A stretch of DNA of 64,000 nucleotides, taken from positions 42,453-106,452 of the forward strand of contig CACXYM010000008.1 in the NCBI GenBank assembly GCA_902771935.1. Reading direction: 5' to 3'. This DNA is from an uncultured Bacteroidales bacterium. Its GTDB lineage: Bacteria; Bacteroidota; Bacteroidia; Bacteroidales; Paludibacteraceae. Position 1 is the stretch's first letter, and every line of letters starts with the position of its first letter. Below, piece by piece: positions 1,079 to 64,000 of the stretch. Position numbers and translations under genes: made by a program. The notes under the pieces are model-generated. The model ran no database searches and was not told the origin of the DNA. It saw only the letters and a list, made by a program, of their open reading frames with translations.

Positions 1079-1983
1079 ATCTTACGCTTTAACCATTTAA
1101 CAATTCTATCCGTCGCGGCTCCAATCCAACCAAACCTATAACCTCTGACATCCACTACAACTACGCCCTTATATTCATTTAAGGTATGTAAACCTATTGG
1201 ATATTTCGGATGTGGCGACTCTATATGTCTCACACTTTTCACTTTCCACTTTCCGCGTTCCACTTTTATCCGCTTGATATCAATCGCGCACCCATAACTT
1301 TTGCTACAGTCTTGTGCCGGATAATAGTACGAACGATTATACTCGAATACCCCCCCCCCCATTCGCGAATCAGGCATCTCCGAAGAAATAACCTCCCCAG
1401 GTATAAATCGTTGTTTCTTTTCTTTCCAATGGTATATATCTAGTTGATAATCATCATGCGCTGCAGTGAACATCAGTGGTTCTCCGAATGATTCCGTGAT
1501 ATATGAATCCCACACAACATCATCGCATATAGTCTGAACAAAAGTTAACTCTTCTGACTCCGGATGATACTCATACATATCCAATCGTCCAATATGTGCA
1601 CTTTCTGGATAAACATATATATGTCCTTCTTTGCGCCATATAGCAGGGAACGATAAATGAGTTGGCAATTCCAATAACTCCTTGCGTGCACTAATCTCTA
1701 ATGTCGTTCTATCTATATGCAACAATGATATTATACCTTTGCGTGTAGCGTATGGATAATCCTCAACTAATAGTAGTATCTCTTTCTCTGTCACATCCAA
1801 AACAAACGGATCTGCGAACCACCTGTCCTTCGGCATCTTCACCCAGTCTACTTGCAAATCTACATTCTTCAAACTGCAATCTTCAATAGGTGACGAGCCT
1901 TCCATCACCGCATCCATTCCTCCCCACACAAAACCTATTGCCCAACGAGTCTGAATCAGCCTATTTACCACCTTTTTTAACAT
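1075..1983 (-). CDS. Beta-propeller protein of the capsule operon with an in-frame G11 tract
   Basis: 302 residues, no signal peptide. Repeated blades are visible, for example DRWFADPFVL near residue 54, and the arrangement resembles the five-bladed GH43/GH32-like propeller domain found in some sugar-modification and glycosyltransferase proteins. The usual acidic catalytic triad cannot be assigned, so it may bind or modify a glycan instead of hydrolysing it. Residues 208-211 (GGG) are encoded by an uninterrupted run of 11 G on the coding strand. A gain or loss of one or two G would truncate the protein after about two thirds of its length. A five-unit heptamer array (1233-1267) encodes roughly residues 239-251 (KVERGKWKVKSVR). 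It sits 41 bases downstream of the TupA-like gene and overlaps the next gene by ATGA. Confidence 0.7.
   Translation of the reverse strand: MLKKVVNRLIQTRWAIGFVWGGMDAVMEGSSPIEDCSLKNVDLQVDWVKMPKDRWFADPFVLDVTEKEILLLVEDYPYATRKGIISLLHIDRTTLEISARKELLELPTHLSFPAIWRKEGHIYVYPESAHIGRLDMYEYHPESEELTFVQTICDDVVWDSYITESFGEPLMFTAAHDDYQLDIYHWKEKKQRFIPGEVISSEMPDSRMGGGVFEYNRSYYYPAQDCSKSYGCAIDIKRIKVERGKWKVKSVRHIESPHPKYPIGLHTLNEYKGVVVVDVRGYRFGWIGAATDRIVKWLKRKI
1233..1267. repeat. Heptamer array inside the beta-propeller gene
   Basis: Five contiguous 7-bp units of the type CACTTTT/CACTTTC, with one divergent unit (CGCGTTC). It lies wholly inside a coding region and reads through in frame. It belongs to the same sequence family as the arrays at 3544, 4664 and 48114. 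Confidence 0.75.
1350..1360. repeat. Homopolymer of 11 C (G11 on the coding strand)
   Basis: Bases 1350-1360 are uninterrupted C on the plus strand. They lie inside the beta-propeller gene, which is in frame at this length. It is the longest G/C homopolymer I saw in the window and a candidate slipped-strand switch. Confidence 0.9.
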
Positions 1984-2024
1984 ATACTTTTGCTATATCA
2001 TGTTATCTAGCAATCATCTATCAA

Positions 2025-2951
2025 TTATCTATGATTGGCCTTGGGCAAATGAATCTCGTCGCCCCAAATATAGTCACACTCATCCGGATGAAACGGTGCT
2101 ATACCACCGTGATGGAAGAAAGTATATTCGCCAAAATAAATGCGACCATCTACCTCATACAAATCAACCCGCACTTCCGGCAAGCCTTTAGAAAGTTTGG
2201 CAGCTAGCTCTTTCATTTGCTCAAACATCTGTGGCTTCCCAATCTCTTTACCCGACATAGGATGACGTTGTGTTATATCCAGATGATTAAAGTCTGCATC
2301 AAAATAATCAAACTTAACCTCTCCACCCGATTGACGCTCGGTCGCGATAAACAGATACTTCACTACTCCATCAAAGCAGAAAAACTTATAATCGCGTAAT
2401 TCACCAGTTGCATCTTCCAAATATTGTTCCGCAAACACACAGCGTTTTACATTCTTATACGGCCATTCACGACCTGCCTTTGAGGTATCCTTACATAGTG
2501 ATTGATTGATACGTTTGATCCATTTTGCCTTGTCTATCTTAGATTTATCCTTGCAAATAAGAACTCCATTATTTCCACTATCATGATTTGTCTTGAGCAC
2601 AAATCGATCTGGCAGTTTTTCCCACTCTATATCCTCAGCTCTATTCCACACTCCCAAAACCGGTGCCACAAACTCTTTACCGACTCGCTCACTAACTAAT
2701 TCCTTCACTCTATATTTATCCACCATCTCTGTCCACATTGGATCACGGTAATAGAGTTTCAACCATTGCAATTTCTCTGTATATCGTTGTGGATTTTCCA
2801 AATTAATAGCACGCCCATGATTGAGATAATAATCCCAGCGAATAAACGTTTCATCTGACAACCATCCTCCGAAACGTGTCAATAACGCATCTAAAAAATG
2901 CTTGGGATTATAGAATAGCGAATGTATCGCATTATATACAGGTCTTTTCAT
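2025..2951 (-). CDS. TupA-like ATP-grasp protein
   Basis: 308 residues matching the TupA-like ATP-grasp family: an N-terminal helical part with NPQRYTEKLQWLKLYY (residues 53-68), the ATP-binding segment RFVLKTNHDSGNNGVLI (about 116-132) and the C-terminal metal-binding strand GRIYFGEYTFFHHGG. TupA was named for teichuronopeptide synthesis in alkaliphilic Bacillus, where it is thought to link amino acids to a cell-wall polymer. In capsule clusters the family is assumed to add amino acids or related groups to the glycan. The reaction here is inferred from the family only. A second, divergent copy lies at 13896-14819 in the same operon. The stop codon lies in a loosely repetitive stretch. Confidence 0.8.
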   Translation of the reverse strand: MKRPVYNAIHSLFYNPKHFLDALLTRFGGWLSDETFIRWDYYLNHGRAINLENPQRYTEKLQWLKLYYRDPMWTEMVDKYRVKELVSERVGKEFVAPVLGVWNRAEDIEWEKLPDRFVLKTNHDSGNNGVLICKDKSKIDKAKWIKRINQSLCKDTSKAGREWPYKNVKRCVFAEQYLEDATGELRDYKFFCFDGVVKYLFIATERQSGGEVKFDYFDADFNHLDITQRHPMSGKEIGKPQMFEQMKELAAKLSKGLPEVRVDLYEVDGRIYFGEYTFFHHGGIAPFHPDECDYIWGDEIHLPKANHR

Positions 2952-2962
2952 GTAATAACTAG

Positions 2963-4078: not shown

Positions 4079-5067
4079 TTTCTCATATGCATAAGCGCGC
4101 AATAGATACGCGGACCAAACAAATTAATCATACGAGCACGACGAGAATACGTTTTACCTTGGTTGGCTATAGTCAGCGGGAACACATTAAATTCTCGCAT
4201 TCGTTCAATATATTCATTTCGTTGTGAGTAAAAATTCAAAGCGACATCAGTCAAGATACCTGCAACCATTCGACTTCGCATATTTCTTAACCATTGACAA
4301 TCCGGATATTGCTCGATATACTTTTTATATTGACCTACAATTGTCAATCTGTCCTCTAAATTCTTACGAATTTTTATCTTATCTCCCTGTACTTTTGTTA
4401 TACTCCCTTGCCGAACCAAATAGTTATATACAACCGTTGTCGTACTATTTACTCGCTTCGCCGCAAGCATCATTCGCGGAAGCCATTCTGTGTCTTCGAA
4501 ATGAATTCCTTCGTAAAATGTATTGACAATGTCTTTACAAATAATAAATTGCCATGCATAGCACGCATATCCCATCCTTGTATTTAAATACGTTTCCCCA
4601 TTTACAACCTCACTCTTCTTGTCCATATATCTCGGAGCTTTATTCGGTTCAAACACCTCATAATCTCCCTCACTTTCTAACTTTCTCACTCCCTCATTCT
4701 TTAAACGTACATTCTGATAATCAAATCGCAACACATCTAATTGCTCACGCTCCACTTGTTCCATCAGGGTTCCCAGCACATTCGGTTCAATATAATCATC
4801 CGAATCCACAAATAGAATATACTCACCTATCGCCACCTCAATTCCGGAATTACGCGCAGCAGACAATCCACCATTCTCACGATGTACCACTCTTATATTA
4901 TCATGCTTCTTGGCATAACTATCACATATTTTGGGGCATTCGTCAGGAGAACCATCATCCACGAGGATTACCTCATAATCCTCGTAATCCTGATTCAAGA
5001 CACTATCTATGCACTTGCATAGATAATCTTCTACGTTGTAAACAGGCATGATGATACTGAGCTTCAT
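4075..5067 (-). CDS. Glycosyltransferase family 2
   Basis: 330 residues. The N-terminal GT-A fold starts with KLSIIMPVYNVEDYL, followed by VILVDDGSPDEC, GGLSAARNSG and the DxD motif in FVDSDDYIEP near residue 88, all standard for inverting GT2 enzymes. The C-terminal half is poorly conserved, as usual, and probably sets acceptor specificity. A 42-bp heptamer array (4664-4705) encodes 14 residues (near VRLKNEGVRKLESEGDYE) in the acceptor half. ATGA overlaps join it to the aminotransferase upstream and the GT4 gene downstream. Sugar specificity is not predictable. Confidence 0.88.
   Translation of the reverse strand: MKLSIIMPVYNVEDYLCKCIDSVLNQDYEDYEVILVDDGSPDECPKICDSYAKKHDNIRVVHRENGGLSAARNSGIEVAIGEYILFVDSDDYIEPNVLGTLMEQVEREQLDVLRFDYQNVRLKNEGVRKLESEGDYEVFEPNKAPRYMDKKSEVVNGETYLNTRMGYACYAWQFIICKDIVNTFYEGIHFEDTEWLPRMMLAAKRVNSTTTVVYNYLVRQGSITKVQGDKIKIRKNLEDRLTIVGQYKKYIEQYPDCQWLRNMRSRMVAGILTDVALNFYSQRNEYIERMREFNVFPLTIANQGKTYSRRARMINLFGPRIYCALMHMRK
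4664..4705. repeat. Heptamer array inside a GT2 gene
   Basis: Six 7-bp units (TCTCCCT, CACTTTC, TAACTTT, CTCACTC, CCTCATT, CTTTAAA), 42 bp in all, so the array spans exactly 14 codons. The reverse complement uses the same words (GAGTGAG, AGTTAG) as the intergenic array at 25636-25747. Confidence 0.7.
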
Positions 5068-6227
5068 TTTACATACAAAACAGAAATCAACTTACATATT
5101 TTCTCCACATCCTCTATCTCTAAATCATAATACATCGGCAGACGCACCAATGTATCGGCATATCGATCACATTCCGACAGGTCGCGACCATCATGTTTGT
5201 CTTGATAATATGCGCTACTGTGCAGACTCAAATAATGGAACACAGCCATGATGCCATTATCTTTTAAATGCTGAATTAATGCCGTTCGTTTATCTAAATC
5301 CGGCAAAATAAGATAAAACATGTGGGCATTATCGGATGCATATTCAGGGATATCTGGCAAGGAGAAATATCCTTTGTCTGCTAATGGCAGGAGGAGTTTA
5401 TAGTAAGTCTCCCAAAGGGACTTACGTTTGGACTGGATTTCGTCAAGATTTTCTAATTGTGCCCAGAGGAAGGCTGCATTGATTTCTGCGGGCAAGAAAG
5501 ACGAGCCCATATCTACCCAACCGTATTTGTTCACTTCACCACGGAAGAACTCTGCACGATTGGTCCCCTTCTCCCAGATTATTTCAGCGCGACGGATAAA
5601 GCGTTCGTCATTAACTACCAACAAACCGCCTTCACCTCCGGCAGTGATATTCTTTGTCTCGTGGAACGAAAAGGCCGCGAGGTGTCCGATGGAGCCTAAC
5701 GGCATTAGTGATTTGTAATTGGTCATTGGTGATTTATAATAACTATCGATGGCTTGGGCTGCATCTTCGACGACGAGGAGGTTATGGCGATTGGCAATCT
5801 CCATAATCTTATCCATATCACATGCGACACCGGCATAGTGAACCGGTACTATAACTTTAGTACGCGGAGTGATAAGGGATTCAATGGTTTCTGCATCAAG
5901 ATTAGGATTGCGCTTCATGGAATCCGCAAAAACGACTTTCGCTCCTTCGCGGAGGAACGCCAATGCCGTGCTGACGAACGTATAACTCGGGATAATTACT
6001 TCATCCCCTGGTTTCAAGTCGCACAACATTGCGCACATCTCCAATGCATCAGTACCTGATGTGGTTAGCAAACACTTCTTAAAACCATAGCGTTCCTCAA
6101 AGAACTGCTGACAGCGTTTAGTAAACTCTCCGTTACCGGATAGTTTTCCAGTTTGGACAGCCTCCAGCATATACTTTGTTTCCTTCCCTGTCAAGTGTGG
6201 TTTATTAAATGGAATGGCATTCATCAT
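5064..6227 (-). CDS. wecE: dTDP-4-keto-6-deoxyhexose aminotransferase (WecE/RffA type)
   Basis: 387 residues, DegT/DnrJ/EryC1/StrS family of PLP-dependent sugar aminotransferases. The PLP lysine lies in SFHETKNITAGGEGG (about Lys192); the cofactor-binding TTSGTDALE (near residue 55) and VEDAAQAID (near 153) are present. The FHETKN form and overall layout match WecE, which makes dTDP-4-amino-4,6-dideoxygalactose, and a WecD-like acetyltransferase lies 3.2 kb upstream in the same operon, so dTDP-Fuc4NAc is the likely product of the pair. Between residues 164 and 175 (SPMTNYKSLM) the protein carries extra residues encoded by a heptamer array; relatives usually pass directly from DS-F/Y-YK to a PLG-type segment here. 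Two adjacent ATGs (6227, 6224) are possible starts. Confidence 0.85.
   Translation of the reverse strand: MMNAIPFNKPHLTGKETKYMLEAVQTGKLSGNGEFTKRCQQFFEERYGFKKCLLTTSGTDALEMCAMLCDLKPGDEVIIPSYTFVSTALAFLREGAKVVFADSMKRNPNLDAETIESLITPRTKVIVPVHYAGVACDMDKIMEIANRHNLLVVEDAAQAIDSYYKSPMTNYKSLMPLGSIGHLAAFSFHETKNITAGGEGGLLVVNDERFIRRAEIIWEKGTNRAEFFRGEVNKYGWVDMGSSFLPAEINAAFLWAQLENLDEIQSKRKSLWETYYKLLLPLADKGYFSLPDIPEYASDNAHMFYLILPDLDKRTALIQHLKDNGIMAVFHYLSLHSSAYYQDKHDGRDLSECDRYADTLVRLPMYYDLEIEDVEKICKLISVLYVK
5704..5738. repeat. Heptamer array inside the wecE-like gene
   Basis: Five 7-bp units (ATTAGTG, ATTTGTA, ATTGGTC, ATTGGTG, ATTTATA). They encode an extra loop of about ten residues shortly before the PLP-lysine motif. 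Same family as 11734-11768. Confidence 0.8.
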
Positions 6228-10102: not shown

Positions 10103-11034
10103 CAGTCGATATTGAGTTTTTCGTTCACGATAAATGTTGGCCTATCTTTCGCCTTTTCAAACAACTTACCCAAATATATTCCCACAACACCTATTAGCGA
10201 AATGATGATTCCGCCAAGCAACCAAAGTGAAATAATCAAGCTAGCAAAACCCATGACTTCGATTAATCCCATAAAATAACGTACAATGAACACGATACCC
10301 ACAATGAAGGCAGCCAATGTTACTAACAACCCCATTTGAACCATGAGACGCATGGGTTTATCAGAGAAGGAAATTATGGTATCGAAAGCTAATTGGAATA
10401 GACGGCTGAGGTTGTAGGTAGATTTGCCTTCTGCACGTTCATCATGCTGTATAGGCAGATAAGCGCGTTTGAAACCAACCCACTGTATTTGCGTTGGAAA
10501 ATAACGCATAGCATCTCCCATGGAGAGTACCGCATTAATCACTTTGCGGTTATAGATACCGAAATTGGCAACCGAAGCGTCTTGTCTGGTTTCCGTGAGA
10601 TATGAGAATACCTTATAAAACATTTGGGAACCCATTTTCTTAAACCAACGATGTGAACGCTGAACACGTTGTGCCAATACTGAATCATACCCTTCTTGGG
10701 CTTTTTTATAAAGGTGAGGAATCTCTTCAGGACGATCTTGGAGGTCACAATCCATGACGACAATCCACTCACCGGTTGCGTAAGAAAGACCGGCGGTAAT
10801 GGCATAATGTTGACCAAAATTACGAGAGAGGTTCAGACCTTTGACACGCGGATTCTTCTTGCACTCGGCTTCTATAGCTGTCCAAGAATTATCCGGCGAG
10901 GCATCATTGACCAGAATGATCTCATAATCATCCGTGATTGAGGTAAGTGCTTCAACATTGCGCCGCACTAATTCAGCAACCAGGTTTGCTCCTCTATATA
11001 CAGGTGACACCACTGATATTTTTGTTTGTTTCAT
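10102..11034 (-). CDS. Undecaprenyl-phosphate glycosyltransferase, GtrB/ArnC type
   Basis: 310 residues. The N-terminal GT2 domain has ISVVSPVYRGANLV, DYEIILVNDASPDNSW, LNLSRNFGQHYAITAGL and VMDCDLQDRPEEI (DxD-type site near residue 95), the layout of polyprenyl-phosphate sugar transferases. Two C-terminal membrane helices follow (about residues 228-250 and 262-290), as in GtrB and ArnC. Such enzymes move a sugar from a nucleotide donor to undecaprenyl phosphate on the inner face of the membrane. Given the WecE/WecD pair and two flippase-like genes directly downstream, Fuc4NAc or another deoxyaminosugar is a good guess for the sugar. Confidence 0.85.
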   Translation of the reverse strand: MKQTKISVVSPVYRGANLVAELVRRNVEALTSITDDYEIILVNDASPDNSWTAIEAECKKNPRVKGLNLSRNFGQHYAITAGLSYATGEWIVVMDCDLQDRPEEIPHLYKKAQEGYDSVLAQRVQRSHRWFKKMGSQMFYKVFSYLTETRQDASVANFGIYNRKVINAVLSMGDAMRYFPTQIQWVGFKRAYLPIQHDERAEGKSTYNLSRLFQLAFDTIISFSDKPMRLMVQMGLLVTLAAFIVGIVFIVRYFMGLIEVMGFASLIISLWLLGGIIISLIGVVGIYLGKLFEKAKDRPTFIVNEKLNID

Positions 11035-11921
11035 ATTCTAAATATGCGTTTATACATCCTATATATTCTCGGCCATTTCAATCGCCATTTCAGCGATCCC
11101 GTCTGCAAACTATAATCAAATATTCCTACTAACTGCTTCGCCTCTTTTCGATACCGGCTATCAAACAAATAAGGATATAACCGTTGTATCATCTCTTTAT
11201 CAAAGAACCGGCGGAACTTGATATTTTTAGCACGAGCCTCAGCAAACTTATCTACAAAATATGGGATATGCTTTTGCAATGGAGCCAGCCGATGCATAGC
11301 TCGATTCTCTGCATCTTGTATATAATATGCATAGGGCCTCATATAGGAAGCTCCTCCATGAAGCATCATTAACCGCCACCACATATCCAAATCTTCCCCA
11401 TGTGTCATGCGCGTATCAAAAAGTCCCACCTCTATTGCATCATCCTTATTTACGCACGCACTACTTCCGGTAAATGCCATCGTAGCATAATTCCATCCTG
11501 ATACGCCTCGATAATAACTATCCTTCAATATCGGTTTCTCATCTCGATTAATTTGTATGCATCCCAATCCATATATACTCTTCCCAGGATAATCTGCTAT
11601 CAACCGCGTCATCTCCTTCAAAAAATCCTTATCCCATATATCATCCCCATCCAAGAAGGCAATATAATCACCTTGAGCAACTAATATTCCGGCATTGCGA
11701 GCAGAACTCACGCCACCGTTTGGCTGCTCAAGTATTTGTAATTTGTAATTGGTAATTGGTAATTTTGAGAAATACTCTTTTACTGTTAATAACGATTTAT
11801 CCGTAGAGCCATCATTGATAACAATCAGCTCCCAGTCCTTATAGGTTTGGGCAACTACTGATTCTATCGTCGACACGATGGAATGTTCTTTATTATAGAG
11901 TGGAATTACAACGCTTATCAT
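11031..11921 (-). CDS. Glycosyltransferase family 2 with a repeat-encoded insertion
   Basis: 296 residues. GT2 motifs are ISVVIPLYNKEHSI, WELIVINDGSTDKS, PNGGVSSARNAG and the DxD-type site FLDGDDIWDK near residue 93. Residues of about 52-62 (KLPITNYKLQI) are encoded by five perfect to near-perfect heptamers at 11734-11768; in relatives only a few residues separate this helix from the ILEQPN strand. The insertion lies in a surface loop away from the DxD. The gene joins both neighbours by ATGA. Donor and acceptor sugars are unknown. Confidence 0.87.
   Translation of the reverse strand: MISVVIPLYNKEHSIVSTIESVVAQTYKDWELIVINDGSTDKSLLTVKEYFSKLPITNYKLQILEQPNGGVSSARNAGILVAQGDYIAFLDGDDIWDKDFLKEMTRLIADYPGKSIYGLGCIQINRDEKPILKDSYYRGVSGWNYATMAFTGSSACVNKDDAIEVGLFDTRMTHGEDLDMWWRLMMLHGGASYMRPYAYYIQDAENRAMHRLAPLQKHIPYFVDKFAEARAKNIKFRRFFDKEMIQRLYPYLFDSRYRKEAKQLVGIFDYSLQTGSLKWRLKWPRIYRMYKRIFRI
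11734..11768. repeat. Heptamer array inside a GT2 gene
   Basis: Five 7-bp units: ATTTGTA twice, ATTGGTA twice, then ATTTTGA. It is the cleanest heptamer array inside a gene in this window. Confidence 0.9.
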
Positions 11922-19684: not shown

Positions 19685-20848
19685 TTACGCCAGGAGCGCA
19701 TCGGCGAGGGCGTGCAAGTCGGGCAGTTGTTCCGGCTTGATAGAACCGCGGATGGAAAGAGTTGGCTCGACAAAATCGATGTTCTGGCATGGAGCAAGGA
19801 GTTCCTTCATCACACGGATTGCTTGCGGTGCCCAAGAGCCGTTTTCTATCATCGCAACGCGACGGTTCTGGAAGCCTTTGAGACGCAGTTTATGCAGAAA
19901 CATGTGCATCGGTGGGAAGATGTCGCCATCGTACGTTGCGCAACAGAGTGCGAGCCGGTTCATGCGGAACGCATCTTCGATAGCCTCCGCCATATCGTCG
20001 CGGCTCAGGTCGGTGATAGCGATCTTGAGGTGTTGTCCATTGGCTTCGGCCTTCGTTTTGAGGATGTCCTCAAGCTGTTCCGCTACGCGACGGGTGTTGC
20101 CGTGGATAGAGGCATAGGCGATGAGCACACCATCCGTCTCGATACCGTACGTGCTCCAGATTGAATAGAGCCGCAGGGCTTCGTCTTTCTGCTCTCCGGA
20201 GAGCATATAACCGTGCAGCGGAGCGATGGTGGAGATGGGTTTGTCCGCCAGTTTCTTGAGCACATTAGCCACCGAGACACCGTACTTGCCGACGATGTTG
20301 AAATAGTACCGTCTTGCTTCGCAAGCCCAGTCGTCTTCGTCCGCATGATAGACGCCGAATTTGCCAAACGCATCGGCCGAGAAAAGTGTCTGTAACTCAG
20401 GGCAATAAGTCATGATCACCTCCGGCCAATGAATCATCGGCGCAGCAATGAAACAGAGTGTCAGTCCGCCCAAATCGAGCGTGTCGTTTTCTGCCACCAC
20501 CCGGGTCTTCGGCGCCTCGATACCGAACTGATTCATCATCGTTACGGCTTGCTTGGAGCAGATGACAGTAGCTTGTGGATAACGCGTCAGAAAGGCCGAC
20601 ATCGAACCACTATGATCGGGTTCCATATGCTGACAGACGAGGTAGTCGGGTTGACGGCCGGCAAGGGCTTTGTCGAGGTTGGTCAGCCACTGGTCGCAGC
20701 ACCGCGCATCCACGGCATCCATCACAGCTACGTGAGAGTCGCCGAGGAGCAGGTAACTATTGTAACACATCCCATCCGGGAGAGCATATTGGCTTTCGAA
20801 CAAGTCGAGTTCGGCATCATCGCAGCCGAGGTAGTGGAAGGAGGGCAT
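19685..20848 (-). CDS. Flavodiiron protein (A-type flavoprotein, oxygen/NO reductase)
   Basis: 387 residues. The N-terminal metallo-beta-lactamase-like domain has the diiron ligands in CQHMEPDHSGS (His74, Glu76, Asp78, His79), with further ligands in APMIHWPEV and FSADAFGKFG. The C-terminal flavodoxin domain begins near GVLIAYASIHGNTRRVAEQL, the FMN phosphate loop. Flavodiiron proteins reduce O2 to water or NO to N2O in anaerobes, taking electrons from rubredoxin-type partners. It follows the rubrerythrin gene and both end in the terminator at 19573-19605, so the two form an oxygen-defence pair. No C-terminal rubredoxin domain is fused to it. Confidence 0.9.
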   Translation of the reverse strand: MPSFHYLGCDDAELDLFESQYALPDGMCYNSYLLLGDSHVAVMDAVDARCCDQWLTNLDKALAGRQPDYLVCQHMEPDHSGSMSAFLTRYPQATVICSKQAVTMMNQFGIEAPKTRVVAENDTLDLGGLTLCFIAAPMIHWPEVIMTYCPELQTLFSADAFGKFGVYHADEDDWACEARRYYFNIVGKYGVSVANVLKKLADKPISTIAPLHGYMLSGEQKDEALRLYSIWSTYGIETDGVLIAYASIHGNTRRVAEQLEDILKTKAEANGQHLKIAITDLSRDDMAEAIEDAFRMNRLALCCATYDGDIFPPMHMFLHKLRLKGFQNRRVAMIENGSWAPQAIRVMKELLAPCQNIDFVEPTLSIRGSIKPEQLPDLHALADALLA

Positions 20849-20851: not shown

Positions 20852-20900
20852 GTTTAATGTTTAGCGTTTAGAGTTTAGCGATTAGCGTTTAGAGTTTAAT
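20852..20900. repeat. Heptamer array between the flavodiiron and rubrerythrin genes
   Basis: Seven 7-bp units of the GTTTAGC/GTTTAGA type (49 bp). It fills the space between the two genes and contains the rubrerythrin stop codon (20896-20898). Confidence 0.92.
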
Positions 20901-21441
20901 AGTTTTGTGCCAAGAGTTGGAAGTAAGATTGCGGATGGTTGCAAACGGGGCACTCTTCTGGAGCTTCTTTGCCTACAACGATATGTCCGCAGTTGGAGCA
21001 TTGCCAGATGCAGTCACCATCACGGGAGAAAACGACCTTGTCGTTGATGTTCTTGAGCAGTTGGCGATAACGCTCTTCGTGATGTTTCTCGATAGCAGCA
21101 ACCATGGCGAACTTGGCAGCGATCTCAGTGAAGCCTTCCTCTTCCGCTTCTTTTGCCATACGAGCGTACATGTCTGTCCATTCCATGTTCTCGCCTTCGG
21201 CAGCAGCCAAGAGGTTTGTTACAGTATCGCTTACAGCACCGCCGTTGAGGTATTTGTACCAGATCTTGGCGTGTTCTTTCTCGTTGTCAGCCGTCTCTTC
21301 AAAAATCTTGCTAATCTGCACGTATCCGTCCTTCTTTGCTTTTGATGCAAAATAGGTGTACTTGTTACGTGCCATTGACTCTCCGGCAAAAGCCTCCATG
21401 AGGTTCTTTTCGGTCTTTGTTCCTTTCAAATCTTTACTCAT
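20896..21441 (-). CDS. rbr: Rubrerythrin
   Basis: 181 residues. The ferritin-like four-helix domain begins [24 protein letters not shown]-like with Glu ligands in EAFAGES and [14 protein letters not shown] (E-x-x-H), and the second half has [15 protein letters not shown]. The C-terminal rubredoxin-like domain carries two Cys pairs (CSNCGHIV and CPVCNHPQ). Rubrerythrin reduces hydrogen peroxide in anaerobes. Its partner downstream is the flavodiiron protein. The stop codon lies in a heptamer array. No Bacteroidetes-type promoter is obvious in the 27 bases separating it from prfA, so it may be transcribed from the ffh promoter. Confidence 0.93.
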
Positions 21442-21468: not shown

Positions 21469-22569
21469 TTACAGGTCAGCCGCTTTGAGGCGTTCGGCAT
21501 TTTCGGCTACGGTAAGGGCATCGATAACGCCTTGTATATCTCCGTCCATAAAGGCTTGCAGGTTATATACCGTGTAACCGATACGATGGTCGGTGATACG
21601 GCCTTGCGGGTAGTTGTAGGTACGGATCTTAGCACTGCGGTCGCCGGTGGAAACCATCGTCTTACGCCGTGCTGCGATGTCGTCAATATATTTCTGATGC
21701 TCTTTATCATAAATCTGCGTACGGAGGCGTGATAGAGCACGCTCTTTGTTCTTCGGCTGGTCACGCGTTTCGGTACACTCAATCAGTATCTCCTGCACTT
21801 CGCCAGTATTGGGATTTTTCCAGTTATAACGCAGGCGCACGCCGGATTCGACCTTATTGACATTCTGTCCGCCGGCACCTCCTGAACGGAAGGTCTCCCA
21901 CTTGATTTCGCCCTCGTTGATATGCACTTCGAACTCATCGGCTTCGGGCAGCACAGCTACCGTAGCAGCGGATGTATGCACACGTCCCTGCGTCTCTGTA
22001 ACGGGCACACGCTGAACGCGATGGACACCTGATTCGTACTTAAGTGTGCCGTATACGTTCTGGCCTGTGACATTGAAGATAATCTCCTTGTAACCGCCTA
22101 CAGCTCCTTCAGAGAAGGAGGAGACGGAGTACTTGAACCCGTGAGCTTCGAAATACTTGGTGTACATACGGAAGAGGTCTCCGGCAAAGAGAGCAGCCTC
22201 GTCTCCACCCGTTCCGCCACGAATCTCCATGACTACGTTCTTGCTATCTTCCGGGTCTTGCGGGAGTAAGAGCAGTTTGAGTTCTTCCTCCAACTTAGGA
22301 ATCTGCGGCTCGAGTTCATCAATCTCCGCGCGCGCCATCTCCTTCAGTTCGGGGTCGGACTCGTTATAAAAGAGCTGCTTGGCTTCATCGAGATTGTGCA
22401 CAGCTTTCTTGTATTTCTCAGCACCTTCGAGCACTCGTTCAAGGTCGTGATATTCGCGATTGAGACGCACATAACGTGCCTGATCCGCTATCACGGCGGG
22501 ATCGGTAATGAGGAGCGACACTTCGTGGAACTTCGCTTCCAGACCTTCTATTTTAGAGAGAATATCCAT
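21469..22569 (-). CDS. prfA: Peptide chain release factor 1
   Basis: 366 residues, normal for RF1. The GGQ motif (FRSGGAGGQNVNKVES) catalyses peptidyl-tRNA hydrolysis, and RVQRVPVTETQGRVHTSA contains the PxT-type tripeptide (here PVT) that reads UAA and UAG. The PxT form and the HRVQRVP context separate RF1 from RF2. The N-terminal helical domain is complete from MDILSKIEGLEAKFHEV. It lies in the run ffh-folD-22593 gene-prfA-rbr-flavodiiron; a heptamer array fills the 23 bases between it and the upstream gene. Confidence 0.96.
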   Translation of the reverse strand: MDILSKIEGLEAKFHEVSLLITDPAVIADQARYVRLNREYHDLERVLEGAEKYKKAVHNLDEAKQLFYNESDPELKEMARAEIDELEPQIPKLEEELKLLLLPQDPEDSKNVVMEIRGGTGGDEAALFAGDLFRMYTKYFEAHGFKYSVSSFSEGAVGGYKEIIFNVTGQNVYGTLKYESGVHRVQRVPVTETQGRVHTSAATVAVLPEADEFEVHINEGEIKWETFRSGGAGGQNVNKVESGVRLRYNWKNPNTGEVQEILIECTETRDQPKNKERALSRLRTQIYDKEHQKYIDDIAARRKTMVSTGDRSAKIRTYNYPQGRITDHRIGYTVYNLQAFMDGDIQGVIDALTVAENAERLKAADL

Positions 22570-22576
22570 TCTTAAC

Positions 22577-22604
22577 GTTTAGCGTTTAGGGTTTAGGGTT
22601 TAGG
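22577..22604. repeat. Heptamer array at the 3' end of the 22593 gene
   Basis: Four 7-bp units (GTTTAGC, then GTTTAGG three times). It includes the last codons and the TAA stop (22593-22595) of the exported-protein gene, and ends eight bases before the prfA start. Confidence 0.85.
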
Positions 22605-23219
22605 GGTCACGGTGCCGGTTTCGGCATATTCTTTGATGTTATTGACCATCATCTCTATGCGCCAGGCAGCCACTTCGTTCCACGTCTTGGTAGTGACGAA
22701 AGCGGAGAAGAACTTACCGAGCACGACGTTCAATTCAAAATGCATCAGCGTATGGTCAGGATCAATCGGCGTTGTATGGAACTGTCCGTTAGCGGCTTGC
22801 AGCAACGAACCTGAGTAGGTTATCTCCAGCCGTGCGTAACGTGTTTTGTTGACTACGCTGTCGCGGTAGATACTGCCCACTTCGCGGTTCTTGAACCAGG
22901 GCACACCAAGCACTTCGATGGTAGTAATGAGTTTGCCGGTTCGTGTTTCGGGGTCGTAGGTATTGCCTACGTATTTGATGGAAACGGCATCTTTGCCCTT
23001 TGTGTCACCTTTGTTTTCGGTACCAATAAACGCCCAGGTGAAGAGGTTGTTCATATCGGTTTGCATCTCGTAAACGAAGCGGTCGATTACTTCATTGGCA
23101 CGGTCGTAACTGCAGTCCCAGACTTGATCCATAATGACCCGGCGCGTTTGCCGTTCTTCATCCGCAAAGAGGCTGACTGTCAGTAAGATAGAAATAATGG
23201 AAAAAACTATTCGTTTCAT
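22593..23219 (-). CDS. Small exported protein of unknown function
   Basis: 208 residues. A signal peptide is clear (MKRIVFSIISILLTVSLFAD, cleavage after about residue 19, no lipobox). The mature part contains DQVWDCSYDRANEVIDRFVYEM, IKYVGNTYDPETRTGKLITT and WRIEMMVNNIKEYAE, with alternating beta strands and a long final helix as in START/SRPBCC-like folds, but I cannot place it in a family with confidence. Its start overlaps the end of folD by ATGA. The last residues (PKP) are encoded by a heptamer array, so the original C-terminus may have differed. Confidence 0.6.
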   Translation of the reverse strand: MKRIVFSIISILLTVSLFADEERQTRRVIMDQVWDCSYDRANEVIDRFVYEMQTDMNNLFTWAFIGTENKGDTKGKDAVSIKYVGNTYDPETRTGKLITTIEVLGVPWFKNREVGSIYRDSVVNKTRYARLEITYSGSLLQAANGQFHTTPIDPDHTLMHFELNVVLGKFFSAFVTTKTWNEVAAWRIEMMVNNIKEYAETGTVTPKP

Positions 23220-25470: not shown

Positions 25471-25516
25471 AAAAATGCAGAAATTATACTATGATCCCGA
25501 TGGGATCAGGCTTCTA

Positions 25517-25615
25517 ACATAGTAATAATATAGTAGAAACATAGTATAAATATAGTAATAACATAGTAATATCATACTAATCACATAGTTATCACATAGT
25601 AATCACATACTAAGT
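25517..25615. repeat. Array of nine 11-bp units in the ffh upstream region
   Basis: Nine contiguous imperfect 11-bp units with consensus ACATAGTAATA (AT-rich). A short perfect inverted repeat (GATCCC, three bases, GGGATC, 25494-25508) stands just before it. The gene-free stretch 25416-25809 holds only the ffh promoter, this array, an 8-bp array and a terminator. Confidence 0.88.
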
Positions 25616-25635
25616 TCTCGAATTGACGGGGGTTG

Positions 25636-25747
25636 GAGAGGGAGGGAGGGAGAGAATGAGAGAGTTAGAGAGTGAAAGAGTTAGGGAGTTAGGGAGTGAG
25701 GGAGTTAGGGAGTGAGGGAGTGAGGGAGTGAGGGAGTGAGGGAGTGA
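25636..25747. repeat. Array of about fourteen 8-bp units
   Basis: Contiguous 8-bp units with consensus GGGAGTGA/GGGAGTTA, the last five (25708-25747) identical. It runs straight into the terminator hairpin at 25749. The words are related to the coding-region array at 4664-4705. Confidence 0.9.
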
Positions 25748-25748
25748 G

Positions 25749-33275: not shown

Positions 33276-33310
33276 ATTATTTGTTATTTGTTATTTGTAA
33301 TTTATTATTT
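33276..33310. repeat. Heptamer array between the MFS permease and susC genes
   Basis: Five 7-bp units (ATTATTT, GTTATTT twice, GTAATTT, ATTATTT). It overlaps the TAA stop of the permease gene (33305-33307) and ends 13 bases before the susC start. Related to the ATTTGTA family. Confidence 0.85.
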
Positions 33311-34648
33311 TCCTTCTTTAATAAACGCTACGCATATAGCACCGAGGACGAGTAGAGCACCGGCTACGACCAGCATGCCCACTTGCGCGCCTGCGCATAT
33401 GTATTTAAGGAGAAGGCCTCCGCAGAGCGCTGCAACGATTTGCGGGATGCAGATGGTGCAGTTGAAGAGTCCGAGGAGAGCTCCCATGTGTTTGCTACCG
33501 GAGATAGCGTTAGTAATGATTGTGAACGGCAGAGCGAGCATAGCTGCCCAAGCAGCACCGATAAGCAGATAGCTGAGCCAGAGCACGTATTGGTTATGCA
33601 CGAACATAACCGAAGCAAAGCCGATAGCACCGACGATAAGGGATATAGCGTATGCTCCTTTATTACCGAACCAGTGCTCAAGTTTAGGCAAGAAAGCCGC
33701 CCAAAGGAGTGAGCCGACAGCTTGTACGCAGAAGACCACGCCAACCCAGTTACCGGCCTGTTGGAAAGCCTCGTGTGCTGCAGAAGCGCCGTCCCAACCG
33801 AAGCAGTTACCGGCAATAGCGCCATTGGAGTATGTCCACATATACATGAAAGCAGCCCAGCAGAAGAACTGCACAAGACCAACGGTGATAAAGGCGCGGA
33901 CGATGCGACCGGTGTTATCTTCACCCGCTTCGGCGGTATCTTCGTTCTGCTTATTGAGTCCGTGGAACTCGGCATACTCTTTCGGATCCATCTCCTCGAC
34001 CACGAGGAAAGTATAGAGTGAGCAGAGAATAAGAATAGCGGCACCTACGTAGAAGGACCACTTAACGGAATCAGGCACAACGCCCTCAGGGGCAGTATTC
34101 GCAATACCAATCCACGTGAAGAATATCGGGAAGAGGTAACCTACGACGGATCCGGCGTTACAGAGGGCGGATTGGATGGCGTAGGCTGTACCTTTCTGCT
34201 TTTCATTAACCATATCGCCGACCATCATTTTAAAGGGCTGCATGGCGATATTAATAGAGGTATCGAGGAACATAAGGGACATGAGTCCGAACCACATGGC
34301 AGAATTAAGGCCCAACCAGACGCGTTGCTCAAAGGAGAAATCGCCTGCATTAGGCAGCAGAATCATCACAGCCACAGCGATTAAAGCACCAATAAGGAGG
34401 TAGAATTTGCGGCGTCCGAAGAACTTACCAAACCAAGTTTTGTCAGAGAGGATACCGATAATCGGTTGCACAATCATACCCATCAACGGAGGAAGAATCC
34501 AGAAGAAAGAAAGTTGGTGCGGATCGGCACCGAGTGTTGCAAAAATACGGGAAATATTAGCCGATTGTAAGGCGTATGCTATCTGCACTCCGAAGAAGCC
34601 AAAACTAAGGTTAAACAGTTGTCCGATTGACAAATCCCTTTTATCCAT
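33305..34648 (-). CDS. MFS sugar permease of the SLC45 / glycoside-pentoside-hexuronide type
   Basis: 447 residues, 12 predicted membrane helices. The N-terminus SIGQLFNLSFGFFGVQIAYAL and the loop FFGRRKFYLLIGAL are characteristic of SLC45-type sugar/proton symporters found in Bacteroidetes maltose and sucrose loci. DPHQLSFFWILPPLMGMIVQPIIG fits the family too. It is the first gene of the operon and likely takes the sugar released in the periplasm across the inner membrane, downstream of SusCD. Maltose, maltodextrin or sucrose are candidates, none proven. The promoter lies 27 bases before the start codon. Confidence 0.85.
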   Translation of the reverse strand: MDKRDLSIGQLFNLSFGFFGVQIAYALQSANISRIFATLGADPHQLSFFWILPPLMGMIVQPIIGILSDKTWFGKFFGRRKFYLLIGALIAVAVMILLPNAGDFSFEQRVWLGLNSAMWFGLMSLMFLDTSINIAMQPFKMMVGDMVNEKQKGTAYAIQSALCNAGSVVGYLFPIFFTWIGIANTAPEGVVPDSVKWSFYVGAAILILCSLYTFLVVEEMDPKEYAEFHGLNKQNEDTAEAGEDNTGRIVRAFITVGLVQFFCWAAFMYMWTYSNGAIAGNCFGWDGASAAHEAFQQAGNWVGVVFCVQAVGSLLWAAFLPKLEHWFGNKGAYAISLIVGAIGFASVMFVHNQYVLWLSYLLIGAAWAAMLALPFTIITNAISGSKHMGALLGLFNCTICIPQIVAALCGGLLLKYICAGAQVGMLVVAGALLVLGAICVAFIKEGK

Positions 34649-37006: not shown

Positions 37007-37034
37007 AGTTTAGCGTTTAGCGTTTAGTGATTAG
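37000..37034. repeat. Heptamer array spanning the recQ stop and the rimO start
   Basis: Five 7-bp units (GAATTAG, AGTTTAG, CGTTTAG twice, TGATTAG). The recQ TAG stop (37004-37006) and the rimO GTG start (37027-37029) both fall inside it. Confidence 0.85.
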
Positions 37035-38328
37035 GGAGATAGATATCATTAGTTTGGGTTGCTCAAAGAATTTGGTGGATACGGAGCGGCTGATGAGACG
37101 GATGGAAGATGCCGGCTATGTGTGCCATTTTGACCCGGAGCAGCCGAAAGCACCGATATTGGTGATTAACACTTGCGGCTTTATCGGCGACGCCAAAGAG
37201 GAAAGCATCAACACCATTCTCGCCAATGCGCTGCGCAAGAAAGCCAAGACCCATCGTCTGGAACGGTTGTACGTAATGGGGTGCCTAAGCGAACGGTACA
37301 AGAAAGAGTTGCCGGATGAAATACCGGAAGTGGACGGCTGGTTCGGGAAGTTTGATTATATGGGGATAATAGAAGAACTAGAAAACGGAGAAGACCTAGG
37401 ATGCCAAAGTATAGAGAGACATATCACGACGCCGAGCCATTACGCTTACTTAAAGATATCAGAAGGCTGCAACCGGATGTGTTCCTACTGCGCGATACCG
37501 CTGATAACGGGCAGACATGTGTCACGGCCGATGGAAGAACTGATACGCGAGGCTGAGTGGTTGCGCGATCAAGGCGTAAAAGAACTGAATGTGATTGCGC
37601 AGGATCTGTCAAGTTACGGATTGGATTTGTACAAAGAGCACAAGTTACCGGAATTGGTGGAACGGCTTGCAGGTATTGAGGGAATACGATGGATACGGTT
37701 GCATTACGCCTACCCTACGGACTTTCCGGAAGAGTTATTAGACGTCATGGCGCGGCATGACAATGTGTGCAAGTACCTGGACATTGCGTTACAACACTGC
37801 ACGACGCACATGCTGAAGAAGATGCGGCGACATATCAATCGCGAAGAGCAGGACGCTCTGATTAAGCGTATCCGTGAGCGCGTACCGGGTATCTGTTTAC
37901 GGACAACTTTGATGGTTGGTCATCCCGGCGAGACGGAAGAAGATTTTGAAGAATTGAAACATTGGGTACGCGAGATGCGTTTTGACCGGATGGGAGCGTT
38001 CGCCTATTCGGATGAGGAAGGAACTTATGCGAGCAGACATTATCCCGACGACATATCGGACGAAGTAAAGCAGCGCCGATTGAGTGAGTTGATGGCTATC
38101 CAACAAGATATTTCAGCAGAACTGATGGCAGAGAAAGTGGGAAAGAAGTTGGAGGTGGTGATTGACCGAAAGGAAGACGACTTGTGGATAGGAAGAACAG
38201 AGTTTGATTCGCCAGAAGTGGATTGTGAAGTGCTGATTGAGGATGCGAAGGAACTACAAATTGGAGAATTTTATACAGTAATAATAACCAAAGCGGAGGA
38301 ATTTGACCTCCACGGAAAAGTATGTTAA
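37027..38328 (+). CDS. rimO: Ribosomal protein S12 methylthiotransferase RimO
   Basis: 433 residues from GTG. The N-terminal UPF0004 domain has IISLGCSKNLVDTERLM and ILVINTCGFIGDAKEESINT, with its three cluster cysteines. The radical-SAM cluster motif is SEGCNRMCSYCAIPLITG (CxxxCxxC), followed by a C-terminal TRAM domain. RimO adds a methylthio group to an aspartate of ribosomal protein S12. The GTG is the only reasonable start that keeps the conserved IDIISLGCSK beginning, and it lies within a heptamer array, so the array supplies the initiation codon. It overlaps the HU gene by seven bases. Confidence 0.95.
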   Translation: MIREIDIISLGCSKNLVDTERLMRRMEDAGYVCHFDPEQPKAPILVINTCGFIGDAKEESINTILANALRKKAKTHRLERLYVMGCLSERYKKELPDEIPEVDGWFGKFDYMGIIEELENGEDLGCQSIERHITTPSHYAYLKISEGCNRMCSYCAIPLITGRHVSRPMEELIREAEWLRDQGVKELNVIAQDLSSYGLDLYKEHKLPELVERLAGIEGIRWIRLHYAYPTDFPEELLDVMARHDNVCKYLDIALQHCTTHMLKKMRRHINREEQDALIKRIRERVPGICLRTTLMVGHPGETEEDFEELKHWVREMRFDRMGAFAYSDEEGTYASRHYPDDISDEVKQRRLSELMAIQQDISAELMAEKVGKKLEVVIDRKEDDLWIGRTEFDSPEVDCEVLIEDAKELQIGEFYTVIITKAEEFDLHGKVC

Positions 38329-49460: not shown

Positions 49461-50210
49461 ATGATAAATGACCAAATGGTAGATATTATTGTTCCCGCAT
49501 ATAATGCCGACAAATACGTAGCCGAGTGTCTCTGTTCTGTCAAGAATCAGATTTTCGAGAACTGGCGATGTATCATTGTTGATGATGGCAGTACAGACAA
49601 CACGGCAATTATAGCGCAGGCATTTGTAGATGCGGACTCCCGTTTCATACTACTTCGCCATGCGGCCAACCGAGGTCAATCGGCAGCCCGAAATACCGCC
49701 TTGGACTACCTTGCGTCGCTCAACGCTAAAAGCTCAACGCTAAACGCTTTCATCACTTTCTTAGACGCGGACGATTGGCTTGACAAAGACTATCTTCACA
49801 CGCTCGTCAGCCATATCGGCGATAAAGATATCCTGCAGGTTGGTTATCGACGCGTCACAGACGAAGGACTTATCCTCGAGCAGAAGACTCCACGTCATTT
49901 TTACCAGTTCACTTCGCCTTGTATGCGCCTGTACCGTGCGGATTACTTACTACGCGCACCGCGTTTTATAGAAGGAATGATTTACGAGGATGTGATTTTC
50001 TCACTCCATATCTGGAGCAGCAAGCCATCCTACCGCATCCTGCCATATACCGGATACAACTACCGCTTTAATGAATCGTCCACCACCTCGCAGCCACATC
50101 CCGCGGAACAGCAAAAACTCTATGCTGCCATCCGCCAAGCCAATGCATTCTGGTGGCTTAAAGGACTCACTATACTTCGTCTTAAATTCCACTATTACCT
50201 ACGTCAATAA
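49461..50210 (+). CDS. Glycosyltransferase family 2 with a repeat-encoded insertion
   Basis: 249 residues, one base after the preceding stop. VDIIVPAYNADKYVAEC, CIIVDDGSTDNTAIIA, NRGQSAARNTALDYLAS and the DxD site FITFLDADDWLDKDY define a GT2 enzyme. Between DYLAS and FITFLDADD about 11 residues (LNAKSSTLNA) are encoded by heptamers at 49718-49752; in related enzymes a two- or three-residue turn normally joins these elements just before the DxD, so the insertion is close to the active site. The protein is short for a GT2 enzyme and ends after the acceptor domain begins. The sugar is unknown. Confidence 0.83.
   Translation: MINDQMVDIIVPAYNADKYVAECLCSVKNQIFENWRCIIVDDGSTDNTAIIAQAFVDADSRFILLRHAANRGQSAARNTALDYLASLNAKSSTLNAFITFLDADDWLDKDYLHTLVSHIGDKDILQVGYRRVTDEGLILEQKTPRHFYQFTSPCMRLYRADYLLRAPRFIEGMIYEDVIFSLHIWSSKPSYRILPYTGYNYRFNESSTTSQPHPAEQQKLYAAIRQANAFWWLKGLTILRLKFHYYLRQ
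49718..49752. repeat. Heptamer array inside a GT2 gene, next to the DxD
   Basis: Units GCTCAAC, GCTAAAA, GCTCAAC, GCTAAAC and GCTTTCA. The reverse complement gives GTTTAGC and GTTGAGC, the same family as the arrays at 20852, 22577 and 37000. Confidence 0.9.
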
Positions 50211-53949: not shown

Positions 53950-54065
53950 TAAAAAGTGCAATTTCGGTGAAAAACTGCCTTTTTTTTTTAGTCGAAAGGC
54001 CACTGTGCTCCGCTCGAAGTCGAAAGTCGAAAGCAGAAGAAAAAGATCCCGTGATGGTCTCGCTT

Positions 54066-54153
54066 GACTATCGGATGACCGTCGTCTGACAGTTGTTCCA
54101 CCGTCGTTCGACCGTCGGGCGACTGTCGGGCGACCGTCGAGCGACCGTCGGGA
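54066..54153. repeat. Array of eight 11-bp units (GACCGTCGGGC type)
   Basis: Eight contiguous imperfect units with consensus GACCGTCGGGC, GC-rich, in the gene-free stretch 53874-54225. Apart from the promoter at 53918-53949, this array and the next, the stretch holds a short repetitive tract (GTCGAAAG words near 53991-54040) and no recognisable gene. Confidence 0.88.
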
Positions 54154-54218: not shown

Positions 54219-54225
54219 TGGAGTT

Positions 54226-57144: not shown

Positions 57145-57197
57145 ATGATGATATAAACGGATGCAAACGGCATCCACAAAAGACGATTTAAAATTTT

Positions 57198-59501: not shown

Positions 59502-59520
59502 ACGGTTCGTTTAGAATAAA

Positions 59521-59551: not shown

Positions 59552-59592
59552 AGTTTAGGTGTTGACATAATCGAGAGATTACGTGACAATGG

Positions 59593-60165: not shown

Positions 60166-60166
60166 A

Positions 60167-61029: not shown

Positions 61030-61102
61030 AATAATAGTATTTAATGGTATCTCCTACTCTTTTTAGGCTTTTCGGATACCGCCTTTATTCTTGTTTCGGG
61101 CA

Positions 61103-61134
61103 CAAAGGTACAACATTTTTTTCATTGTACCAAA
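61103..61134 (-). promoter_or_regulatory. Promoter of the three-gene unit 61029-59593
   Basis: On the minus strand TTTG (61134-61131), a 20-base spacer and TACCTTTG (61110-61103), 73 bases before the first start codon. No terminator was seen between uvrB and this promoter. Confidence 0.85.
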
Positions 61135-61189
61135 TAAATGTATAAAAAAATTAAATTTTTACGTCATTATGTCGATTTTGAAGCAGTAA

Positions 61190-63125: not shown

Positions 63126-63126
63126 T

Positions 63127-64000
63127 TTACATTCTTTCCGGCACTTCTATACCAAGTAAGTTCATCGCGGAGCGAATGACTTTCGCTACGTTTTTAGCGA
63201 GTAAGAGGCGTAACACACGTTTGGCAGTATCCGGCTCGTTGAGGATACTCAAATCGTGATAGAAGGAGTTGAAATCGCACGCCAACGCATAAGCGTAATT
63301 GCAAATGACAGCCGGCGAGAAGTCATCTCCCGCTTGGCGAACTATTGCAGGATAATCGCAGAGGCGCTGAATGAGGGAGAGTTCCTTTGGAGCTATTTGT
63401 AAATTGTCATTTGTGATTTGCAATTTTTCTTCAGCAGCCTTGCGGAGCACGGACTGGATGCGTGCGTAGGTATATTGGATGAATGGACCGGTGTTTCCGT
63501 TGAAGTCAATTGACTCTTCGGGGTTGAAGAGCATATTCTTGCGCGGGTCGACTTTGAGGATGAAATATTTGAGTGCGCCAAGTCCTACTTTGCGGGCTAT
63601 CTCGTTAGCCTCAGCGTCTGTGATACCCTGTAAGGTATTGACTTTGTCCTTGCTTATCTCTCGCGCATCCTCAACCATTTTATCCATTAAGTCATCGGCA
63701 TCAACAACCGTTCCTTCGCGGGACTTCATCTTGCCGTTCGGCAGTTCGACCATGCCGTAAGAGAAATGCACTAACTCTTTGCCAAACGGGAAGCCAAGAC
63801 GATCAAGAAGGATAGAAAGCACTTTGAAGTGATACTCTTGCTCATTACCAACGACATAAACCATTTTGTCAATCGGATAGTCCTGGAAGCGGAGCTTGGC
63901 AGTACCGATATCTTGCGTCATATAAACGGAAGTGCCATCCGAACGGAGCAGCAATTTTTCGTCTAAGCCATCTTTGGTTAAGTCAGCCCAAACAGAACCG
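63127..64000 (-). CDS. argS: Arginyl-tRNA synthetase, N-terminus outside the window
   Basis: About 290 C-terminal residues are visible and the frame is open to the window edge. Class I features: [20 protein letters not shown], the region around [17 protein letters not shown], and the KMSKS-like [36 protein letters not shown] and the anticodon-binding domain ending in GIEVPERM fit ArgS. Between VLRKAAEE and [11 protein letters not shown] the protein has about 12 extra residues ([13 protein letters not shown]) encoded by a heptamer array at 63393-63427. The enzyme is essential, so the insertion must be tolerated if the genome sequence is right. Confidence 0.94.
63393..63427. repeat. Heptamer array inside argS
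   Basis: Five 7-bp units (CTATTTG, TAAATTG, TCATTTG, TGATTTG, CAATTTT). It encodes a loop in the alpha-helical part between the catalytic core and the anticodon-binding domain. Related to the ATTTGTA family. Confidence 0.8.

Follow-up and report, generated by a model that had tools for sequence, protein, structure and literature searches.

How do short tandem arrays of seven-base words come to lie both between the genes of a bacterium and, in frame, inside them? The question is raised by a stretch of 64,000 nucleotides (the window, C8:42453-106452) from a metagenome-assembled genome of the Paludibacteraceae (2.06 Mb, 46 contigs, 95% complete; the source genome below), in which an initial annotation had noted such arrays and ascribed them to copying, not independent slippage. 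The analysis presented here partly confirms that observation and partly supports that interpretation. At fixed sites the arrays turn over between species, words are shared within a genome, and lengths of about four units are the most frequent; the largest family has preferred ends and carries one identical order of unit variants at unlinked loci. We put at about one half the probability that elements of about four units spread by copying between loci and are then filtered by selection.

Heptamer arrays in the window and its genome

In the window, arrays of period 7 are far commoner than chance predicts: nine segments score at least 10, five of them at least 16 (mean in 20+20 Markov simulations, 0.20-0.25), and the remaining periods from 2 to 30, multiples of 7 excluded, give 0-4 segments each. 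A scan of 464 kb of the source genome, window included, found 50 period-7 segments with a score of at least 10, and 24 of period 11. As tandem seven-base units that are longer and commoner than chance, the arrays fit the broad class of heptanucleotide long simple sequence repeats. Thirteen arrays of exact period 7 had been listed initially. Nine are clear (at 1233, 5704, 11734, 20852, 22577, 33276, 37000, 49718 and 63393): in their best 14 bases the identity at lag 7 is 0.79-1.00. Those at 12481 and 48114 are borderline; at lag 7 they reach 0.71, a value that 99% of random stretches do not exceed, and they fit lag 8 equally well. The array at 4664 has period 8 (identity 0.86 at lag 8, 0.36 at lag 7), and the segment at 3544 has no period 7 (lag-7 identity 0.36). 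The nine clear arrays, and two short ones that were not on the earlier list, are as follows.

1233-1266, forward strand: CACTTTC array in a glycosyltransferase-like gene (1075-1983, reverse strand), coding for VERGKWKVKS
5704-5738, forward strand: decayed ATTTGTA/ATTGGTC array of 5 units in a DegT-type aminotransferase gene (5064-6227, reverse strand)
11734-11765, forward strand: ATTTGTA/ATTGGTA array in a family-2 glycosyltransferase gene (11031-11921, reverse strand), coding for KLPITNYKLQ
20852-20898, forward strand: GTTTAGN array filling the 47-base gap between a gene at 19685-20848 (reverse strand) and that for rubrerythrin at 20896-21441 (reverse strand)
22572-22605, forward strand: GTTTAGN array spanning the gap from 21469-22569 (reverse strand) to the end of 22593-23219 (reverse strand)
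33277-33310, forward strand: TTATTTG array, most of the gap between 30282-33263 (reverse strand) and 33305-34648 (reverse strand)
35637-35655, forward strand: CAAGAAC, 2.7 copies, in recQ; weak, may be chance
37003-37034, forward strand: GTTTAGN array at the recQ-rimO junction
49717-49748, reverse strand: GTTTAGC/GTTGAGC array in a glycosyltransferase gene (49461-50210, forward strand)
54017-54033, forward strand: AAGTCGA, 2.4 copies, intergenic, adjoining an 11-base GC-rich array
63395-63426, forward strand: ATTTGTA-type array in a loop of ArgS, whose gene is on the reverse strand, coding for 11 residues

The initial annotation had noted that words are shared between sites in both orientations, and this holds for the source genome, where 14 contigs carry GTTTAGN triplets with up to two mismatches, 34 in forward and 46 in reverse orientation. 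A backward control pattern gave 8 forward and 22 reverse matches, which we take to be another word family, GATTTGN. With up to one mismatch, GTTTAGN triplets were found in 28 of 61 genomes including the source genome, mostly within the genus, also in five other families. Period-7 arrays were rare in stretches from 20 genomes of other families (269,512 bases, some of them all N), except on contig L318, which was picked for its hits and so is no fair control. Runs of N score at every period; they are present in some counts on samples of several genomes and in that on other families (presumably in the G029 sample, L326 and L329) and were excluded from the analyses of array length, lag identity, length simulation and end phase.

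Genes were called by a home-made script, with a coding share of 90-93%. By these calls, 17 of the 37 period-7 arrays that score at least 12 straddle a gene boundary, nine are intergenic and 11 are fully coding, so that arrays do occur both between and inside genes, as first described. At several places nearly the whole intergenic gap is occupied by an array. The period-11 arrays are intergenic in 18 cases out of 21.

One junction and the loops of four enzymes in relatives

One fixed junction and a few enzyme loops can be read in 30 to 81 sequences, which makes the replacement, gain and loss of words traceable. The relatives, named through a RimO-like protein, are Paludibacteraceae and other Bacteroidales assemblies, often with rumen or hindgut in their names. 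In the window the array at the recQ-rimO junction contains the recQ stop codon TAG (37004-37006); a GTG within it (37027) may be the start of the following open reading frame, for which the gene script gave 37102. The junction was read in 79 of 81 sequences (78 relatives and the window); L121 and L128 have no recQ match beside the gene. Six of the 79 gaps were too short (3) or too long (3) to be scored. Among the 73 scored gaps, 22 hold a periodic array (period 6-11, score at least 10), as compared to 0.38% of 3650 shuffled gaps, the shuffles preserving base content only. These 22 arrays are made of 18 different words, among them GTTTAGN in the window, AATGAAT (L051), GTGATTT (L059), AATTCAC (L086), AAAGTTG (L126), GTCGTTR (L075, L089, L093) and the 8-base AGTGAAAG of L064, whose array is long and homogeneous with about 17 units. 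The other 51 gaps have no array at this score; by eye, some contain hairpin repeats. In some relatives recQ and rimO overlap (TGATG).

Other occupants of this junction were seen as well. In L109, L112 and L119 the gap holds tandem hairpins with a near-constant frame (TATAGGACG...CTATAG) and self-complementary stems that differ from copy to copy (by eye). L104, L106 and L116 have a gene of roughly 125 codons between recQ and rimO, whose product looks like a GxxExxY-type protein.

The ArgS loop between RIQSVLRK and KELxLIQRL has unlike contents, many of them periodic, in the source genome and 29 relatives that are 76-90% identical in the matched part. Besides the 7-base array of the window there are 9-base arrays of CTAGGCAAC (G061, G030), 8-base arrays resembling GATCTCGA (G032, G021, G035), 16-base arrays (G003, G034, G002, G022) and 7-base arrays of GGTTACN (G006, G026); the loops of more distant relatives mostly have no clear period. 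The ArgS, DapB and NadD alignments each comprise the source genome and 29 relatives, out of 34, 36 and 40 genomes with a match. In DapB the loop of the source genome is an AGTCGAA array. Period-7 arrays of other words occupy it in eight of the 29 relatives (L255, L257, L260, L264, L266, L274, L275, L277; judged by eye and best lag), and 19 of the remaining 21 have a shorter loop. The NadD gene of the source genome has 14 extra residues encoded by an in-frame array of 42 bases, six heptamers long; they are absent from 27 of the 29 relatives, and the other two have different inserts.

The rimO gene of the recQ-rimO junction was aligned in more sequences.

37027-38328, forward strand: RimO/MiaB-type methylthiotransferase; loop 2 is minimal here, and three loops have varied repeats in relatives

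Across 81 sequences RimO has three hypervariable loops. Loop 2 is minimal in 57 sequences and has between 3 and 111 bases of extra sequence in 24, made of about a dozen different words or hairpin elements, some common to two or three species. Insert lengths in the loops are multiples of three, necessarily so because open frames were aligned. Alignment to orthologues thus finds the NadD array missing from most relatives and the ArgS, DapB and RimO loops holding different arrays in different species. It had been thought that arrays inside genes add 10-15 residues in loops; they do lie in loops, but in DapB and ArgS they often replace loop content. An aligned ArgS of solved structure has a loop of similar size, so that the ArgS arrays replace the content of a loop and do not create a new one.

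Some further repeats were noted. A hairpin-like repeat in rimO loop 2 of L067, L079, L115 and L123 codes for peptides like PTPNPSLKGKE, and a similar C-rich/G-rich hairpin stands in the recQ-rimO gap of L096, L115 and L123 (both by eye). The period-9 arrays of G030, G061 and others consist of an invariant palindrome, CCTAGG, whose copies are separated by three free bases.

Unit number, ends and shared words

Array lengths were surveyed at 154 loci of the genus and family, 2.98 Mb in all. Of 421 period-7 arrays 195 are 26-34 bases long and only 43 are 35-43 bases; half have 3.5-5 units, with a sharp fall above. The peak is spread over many words. A further length group at 16-20 bases is fed by chance matches, and period 11 shows a secondary peak at 43-44 bases (19/184). 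Three geometric length simulations gave no such period-7 peak, although these are simple models only and long arrays exist. In period-7 arrays of about four units, identity is 0.892 between units one step apart, 0.874 at two steps and 0.893 at three, so similarity hardly decays with unit distance. Step-wise doubling, which would leave ABAB units, was not seen, identity at lag 14 being slightly below that at lags 7 and 21. The words GTTTAGN, GGTTACN and CCTAGGNNN suggest that a hexamer is conserved and the remaining bases are free, a rule that was not significant across all arrays.

The largest family, that of (AGTYGAA)4AG, comprises 58 arrays of AGTYGAA and near variants, of which 28 share one start phase and 27 one end phase; in these counts orthologous copies may enter repeatedly where flanks differ, and, the chi-square test being applied to small counts, exact P values were computed. 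The AGTCGAA member reads GCTTTCGACTTTCGACTTTYGACTTTCGACTA on the other strand. Its flanks have G on the left in 31 of 45 cases and A on the right in 28 of 45, with little else in common. Nine of the 11 arrays of this family in the source genome have exactly four units. The string with T in the third unit recurs at many loci in G029 and at other, unlinked loci with unlike flanks in G009, G032, G018 and L080, in a survey where 20 of the 204 loci had been preselected for the word and supplied 16 of the 17 exact copies. With the four-unit mode and the preferred ends, this identical variant order makes the choice between slippage and copying directly testable.

Word sharing was tested on samples of seven genomes with G+C between 0.44 and 0.49, with one mismatch allowed and in any rotation or strand. 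For period 7, 160 of 1523 pairs of arrays share a word within genomes and 268 of 5498 between genomes; the corresponding figures are 12/103 and 7/362 for period 8, and 12/256 and 2/734 for period 11. In none of 500 label permutations was the observed difference reached, for any of the three periods. The words of the ArgS loops can be set beside their frequency elsewhere in the same genomes. CCTAGGNNN occupies two of 30 ArgS loops, and both genomes are the richest of 41 in this word (33 and 24 matches; the next has 12). For GGTTACN, the genomes that have it in ArgS come third and fourth among the 41, and those with a 16-base word in ArgS rank 2, 5, 7 and about 16 for theirs.

A dispersed 16-base repeat, GCGGTCTTACAGCGNA, is found in many genomes of the genus (140 matches in G024) and has no match in the source genome. 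By eye it forms a GC-GNA-GC mini-hairpin with paired changes (AGCGAAGC to AGTGAAAC).

Copying, slippage and related repeats

On the reading that we favour, the arrays would mostly be blocks of about four 7-base units in tandem (in some the unit has 8, 9, 11 or 16 bases) and would spread within each genome from place to place, probably by templated insertion or template switching in trans. Selection would then act on them differently by site: at junctions, words with stop codons would survive, being able to supply a stop or start codon, and in genes stop-free readings would survive in loops that tolerate extra or replaced residues. The repertoire of words would be common to all species and each would amplify a different part of it, so that the same junction or loop would hold different words in each. 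The copying act, an enzyme behind it and the filtering by selection are inferred. The words shared within genomes, the unlike words at the same sites, the four-unit mode, the preferred ends of the largest family and the variant order at unlinked loci support copying over independent slippage, as first proposed. Slippage probably still edits arrays once they are present, as long homogeneous arrays such as that of L064 indicate. If copying is at work, loops of ArgS, NadD, DapB and RimO may change in frame by larger steps than point mutation provides. More speculatively, and with considerable doubt, one may imagine a trans-acting Paludibacteraceae system that would write ready-made blocks of four 7-base units (and of 11-base units) from stored templates and so remodel enzyme loops in frame; it could be seen as a bacterial analogue of templated repeat addition.

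Several results weigh against copying. Among near-identical strains no site was seen empty in one and filled in another, so that an insertion event was never observed directly, nor was a target duplication established. No trans-acting gene was identified. The source genome does have one reverse transcriptase gene (RVT_1). The genomes richest in GGTTACN, G035 and G003, have other words in their ArgS. At the recQ-rimO junction the word of the gap is 1.7 times commoner in its own locus than in others (p 0.034, mostly 20-kb loci), a weakly positive result, and for 11 of the 22 arrays the own locus has no second copy of the word. Adjacent units match better than distant ones in period 8 (7.35 and 6.87 matches) and period 11 (9.86 and 9.34) and, by a smaller gap, in period 7 (6.28 and 6.11). 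Within arrays, variation does not gather significantly in any one column (21 vs 16.2 +/- 3.1). Ten families smaller than AGTYGAA behave in a weaker and mixed way, with exact P<0.001 for the end phase in two and for the start phase in none. Finally, five of the AGTYGAA arrays in the source genome are not independent, since they share one stretch of about 1 kb, where three belong to a local repeat.

In a rival account, local slippage favouring 7-base loops makes the arrays independently and selection spares those at harmless sites; words would then be shared because some slip more readily than others or because codons and stop codons constrain them. In many bacteria no class of long simple repeats is commoner than that of period 7 (Mrazek 2007, cited by PMC4679880 and PMC4692102), some arrays are far longer than four units, that of L064 being both long and homogeneous, and neighbouring units are slightly closer than distant ones. 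Such an account, which we regard as a serious if somewhat unlikely one, fits poorly with genome-specific words at similar G+C, with the four-unit mode and the slight decay of similarity along arrays, and with preferred ends and one multi-unit variant order at unlinked loci. The near-constant unit number, the 17 of 37 arrays that straddle a gene boundary and a regulatory role proposed for the TAACTGA repeat (PMC4679880) would also agree with DNA or RNA binding sites selected at junctions, one unit for each subunit of an oligomeric protein. We consider this improbable, as the words at a given junction change from species to species, a single genome contains several unrelated ones, most of the recQ-rimO gaps (51/73) lack such an array and the arrays inside enzymes are coding. 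An artefact of assembly or gene prediction in metagenome-assembled genomes might be suspected, since the named relatives are metagenome assemblies by title and the gene calls are home-made; this is very improbable indeed, as assemblies from many studies agree in having these loops and junctions filled, with open frames and conserved flanks.

That a known kind of mobile system drives the arrays, whether through a reverse transcriptase or through a HUH transposase of the IS200/RAYT type working on hairpins, is likewise improbable. The RVT_1 match of the source genome (C8:19805-20419, reverse strand, in an open frame of 365 residues) lies about 22 kb before the window, but RVT_1 was matched in 11 of 41 genomes and not in the array-rich G035, G014 and G017. 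IS200/Y1 transposases (PF01797) were found in 16 of 41 genomes at E 0.001 and in 12 of 41 over the cut-off, none of them the source genome. RAYT-like proteins with an MPDHVH/MPDHIH motif were matched in 28 of the 41 genus genomes, some beside hairpin repeats (by eye), and the mini-hairpin of the 16-base family with its paired changes would suit such an enzyme; the source genome and G017 have no match. As the genomes are incomplete (the source genome is 95% complete, and a gap is possible), single absences prove little. A polymerase or recombinase that tracks the arrays, as envisaged initially, was thus not found among the three families tried in 41 genomes. Carriage by phages was considered and rejected as well: the 30-base string occurs in 21 stretches of viral contigs, 11 of which represent two sites repeated in related contigs, and all have C in the third unit and none the G at the left end. 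Plasmids gave three weak matches (E 0.02-0.7). The RAYT-like proteins (L246-L253) are mostly 330-440 amino acids long, with a Y1/HUH-type motif and a conserved C-terminal part that has no Pfam name, and number up to seven per genome.

Heptamer arrays have long been described, and their mechanism was never settled. The initial annotation knew of no such arrays in Bacteroidales or in coding regions, but TAACTGA direct repeats are reported from Beggiatoaceae, cyanobacteria and five Bacteroidetes, including two sets in Paludibacter propionicigenes, and in a Beggiatoaceae genome some lie inside genes or overlap stop codons (MacGregor 2015, PMC4679880). The present arrays resemble them in being heptamers, mostly intergenic, with some at an upstream stop codon or in genes, and of patchy taxonomy (PMC4679880); closeness to start and stop codons is evident in that, of 37 arrays, 17 lie across boundaries and nine are intergenic in DNA that is 90-93% coding. 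They differ in that many words are used instead of one, different at the same site between species, and in that they repeatedly occupy loops of conserved enzymes. Of TAACTGA itself there is hardly a trace, with one array of at least two exact units in the 2.98 Mb. The GGGNATC-type heptamer repeats of Xanthomonas and Nostoc, studied as G-quadruplexes (Rehm 2015, PMC4692102), are similarly dispersed, over-represented in non-coding DNA, variable at some unit positions and different in length and sequence among close relatives, and most of those in Xanthomonas have four units. The largest families here, such as AGTYGAA, GAGAATT and GTTTAGN, in contrast, have no run of three G, although a smaller family, GGGGTTA (17/399 arrays), does. 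Rickettsia palindromic elements are dispersed and inserted in frame in unrelated metabolic genes (PMC10969869), as are the insertions in NadD and RimO and the loop replacements in DapB and ArgS; those elements are of about 150 bases and palindromic by name, and the arrays here are tandem and of about 30 bases.

Two further comparisons may be made. The heptanucleotide repeats called STRR in heterocystous cyanobacteria, as well as long simple sequence repeats, reportedly described by Mazel in 1990 and Mrazek in 2007, share the seven-base unit, the over-representation and the tandem arrangement, and we know of no recurrent in-frame loop filling or species-wise word replacement among them. Of three words that we take to be of the STRR type, CAACAGT and CCCCAAT form no array here and TTGGTCA forms nine. 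REP/RAYT systems have short dispersed repeats; RAYT-like proteins exist in the genus, but the source genome has no HUH (Y1) match by protein or PF01797. In the open-licence literature we found nothing on such arrays in Paludibacteraceae beyond the two Paludibacter sets. Within that literature, and as far as our searches show, four things are new: one word taking the place of another, from species to species, at a fixed junction or loop; arrays that occupy loops of conserved enzymes in frame; a four-unit mode among words that have no G runs; and, in the (AGTYGAA)4AG family, preferred ends together with a recurring order of variants.

Arrays of other periods lie in the window as well.

25515-25613, forward strand: 11-base array with core CATAGTA, nine units, in a long intergenic gap
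25638-25748, forward strand: 8-base GAGTGAGG array, about 14 units, intergenic
54095-54150, forward strand: 11-base GC-rich array (GACCGTCGNNC), intergenic

The 11-base array and the 8-base array that follows it share one intergenic gap (25515-25748). The core of GACCGTCGNNC, GAC-N-GTC, is palindromic; the word recurs elsewhere in the genome sample, and a similar word is found inside rimO of L088. An Rfam scan of the window gave a single, unrelated match, to RF02914 (DUF805b RNA) at 61051-61085 on the reverse strand (50.5 bits).

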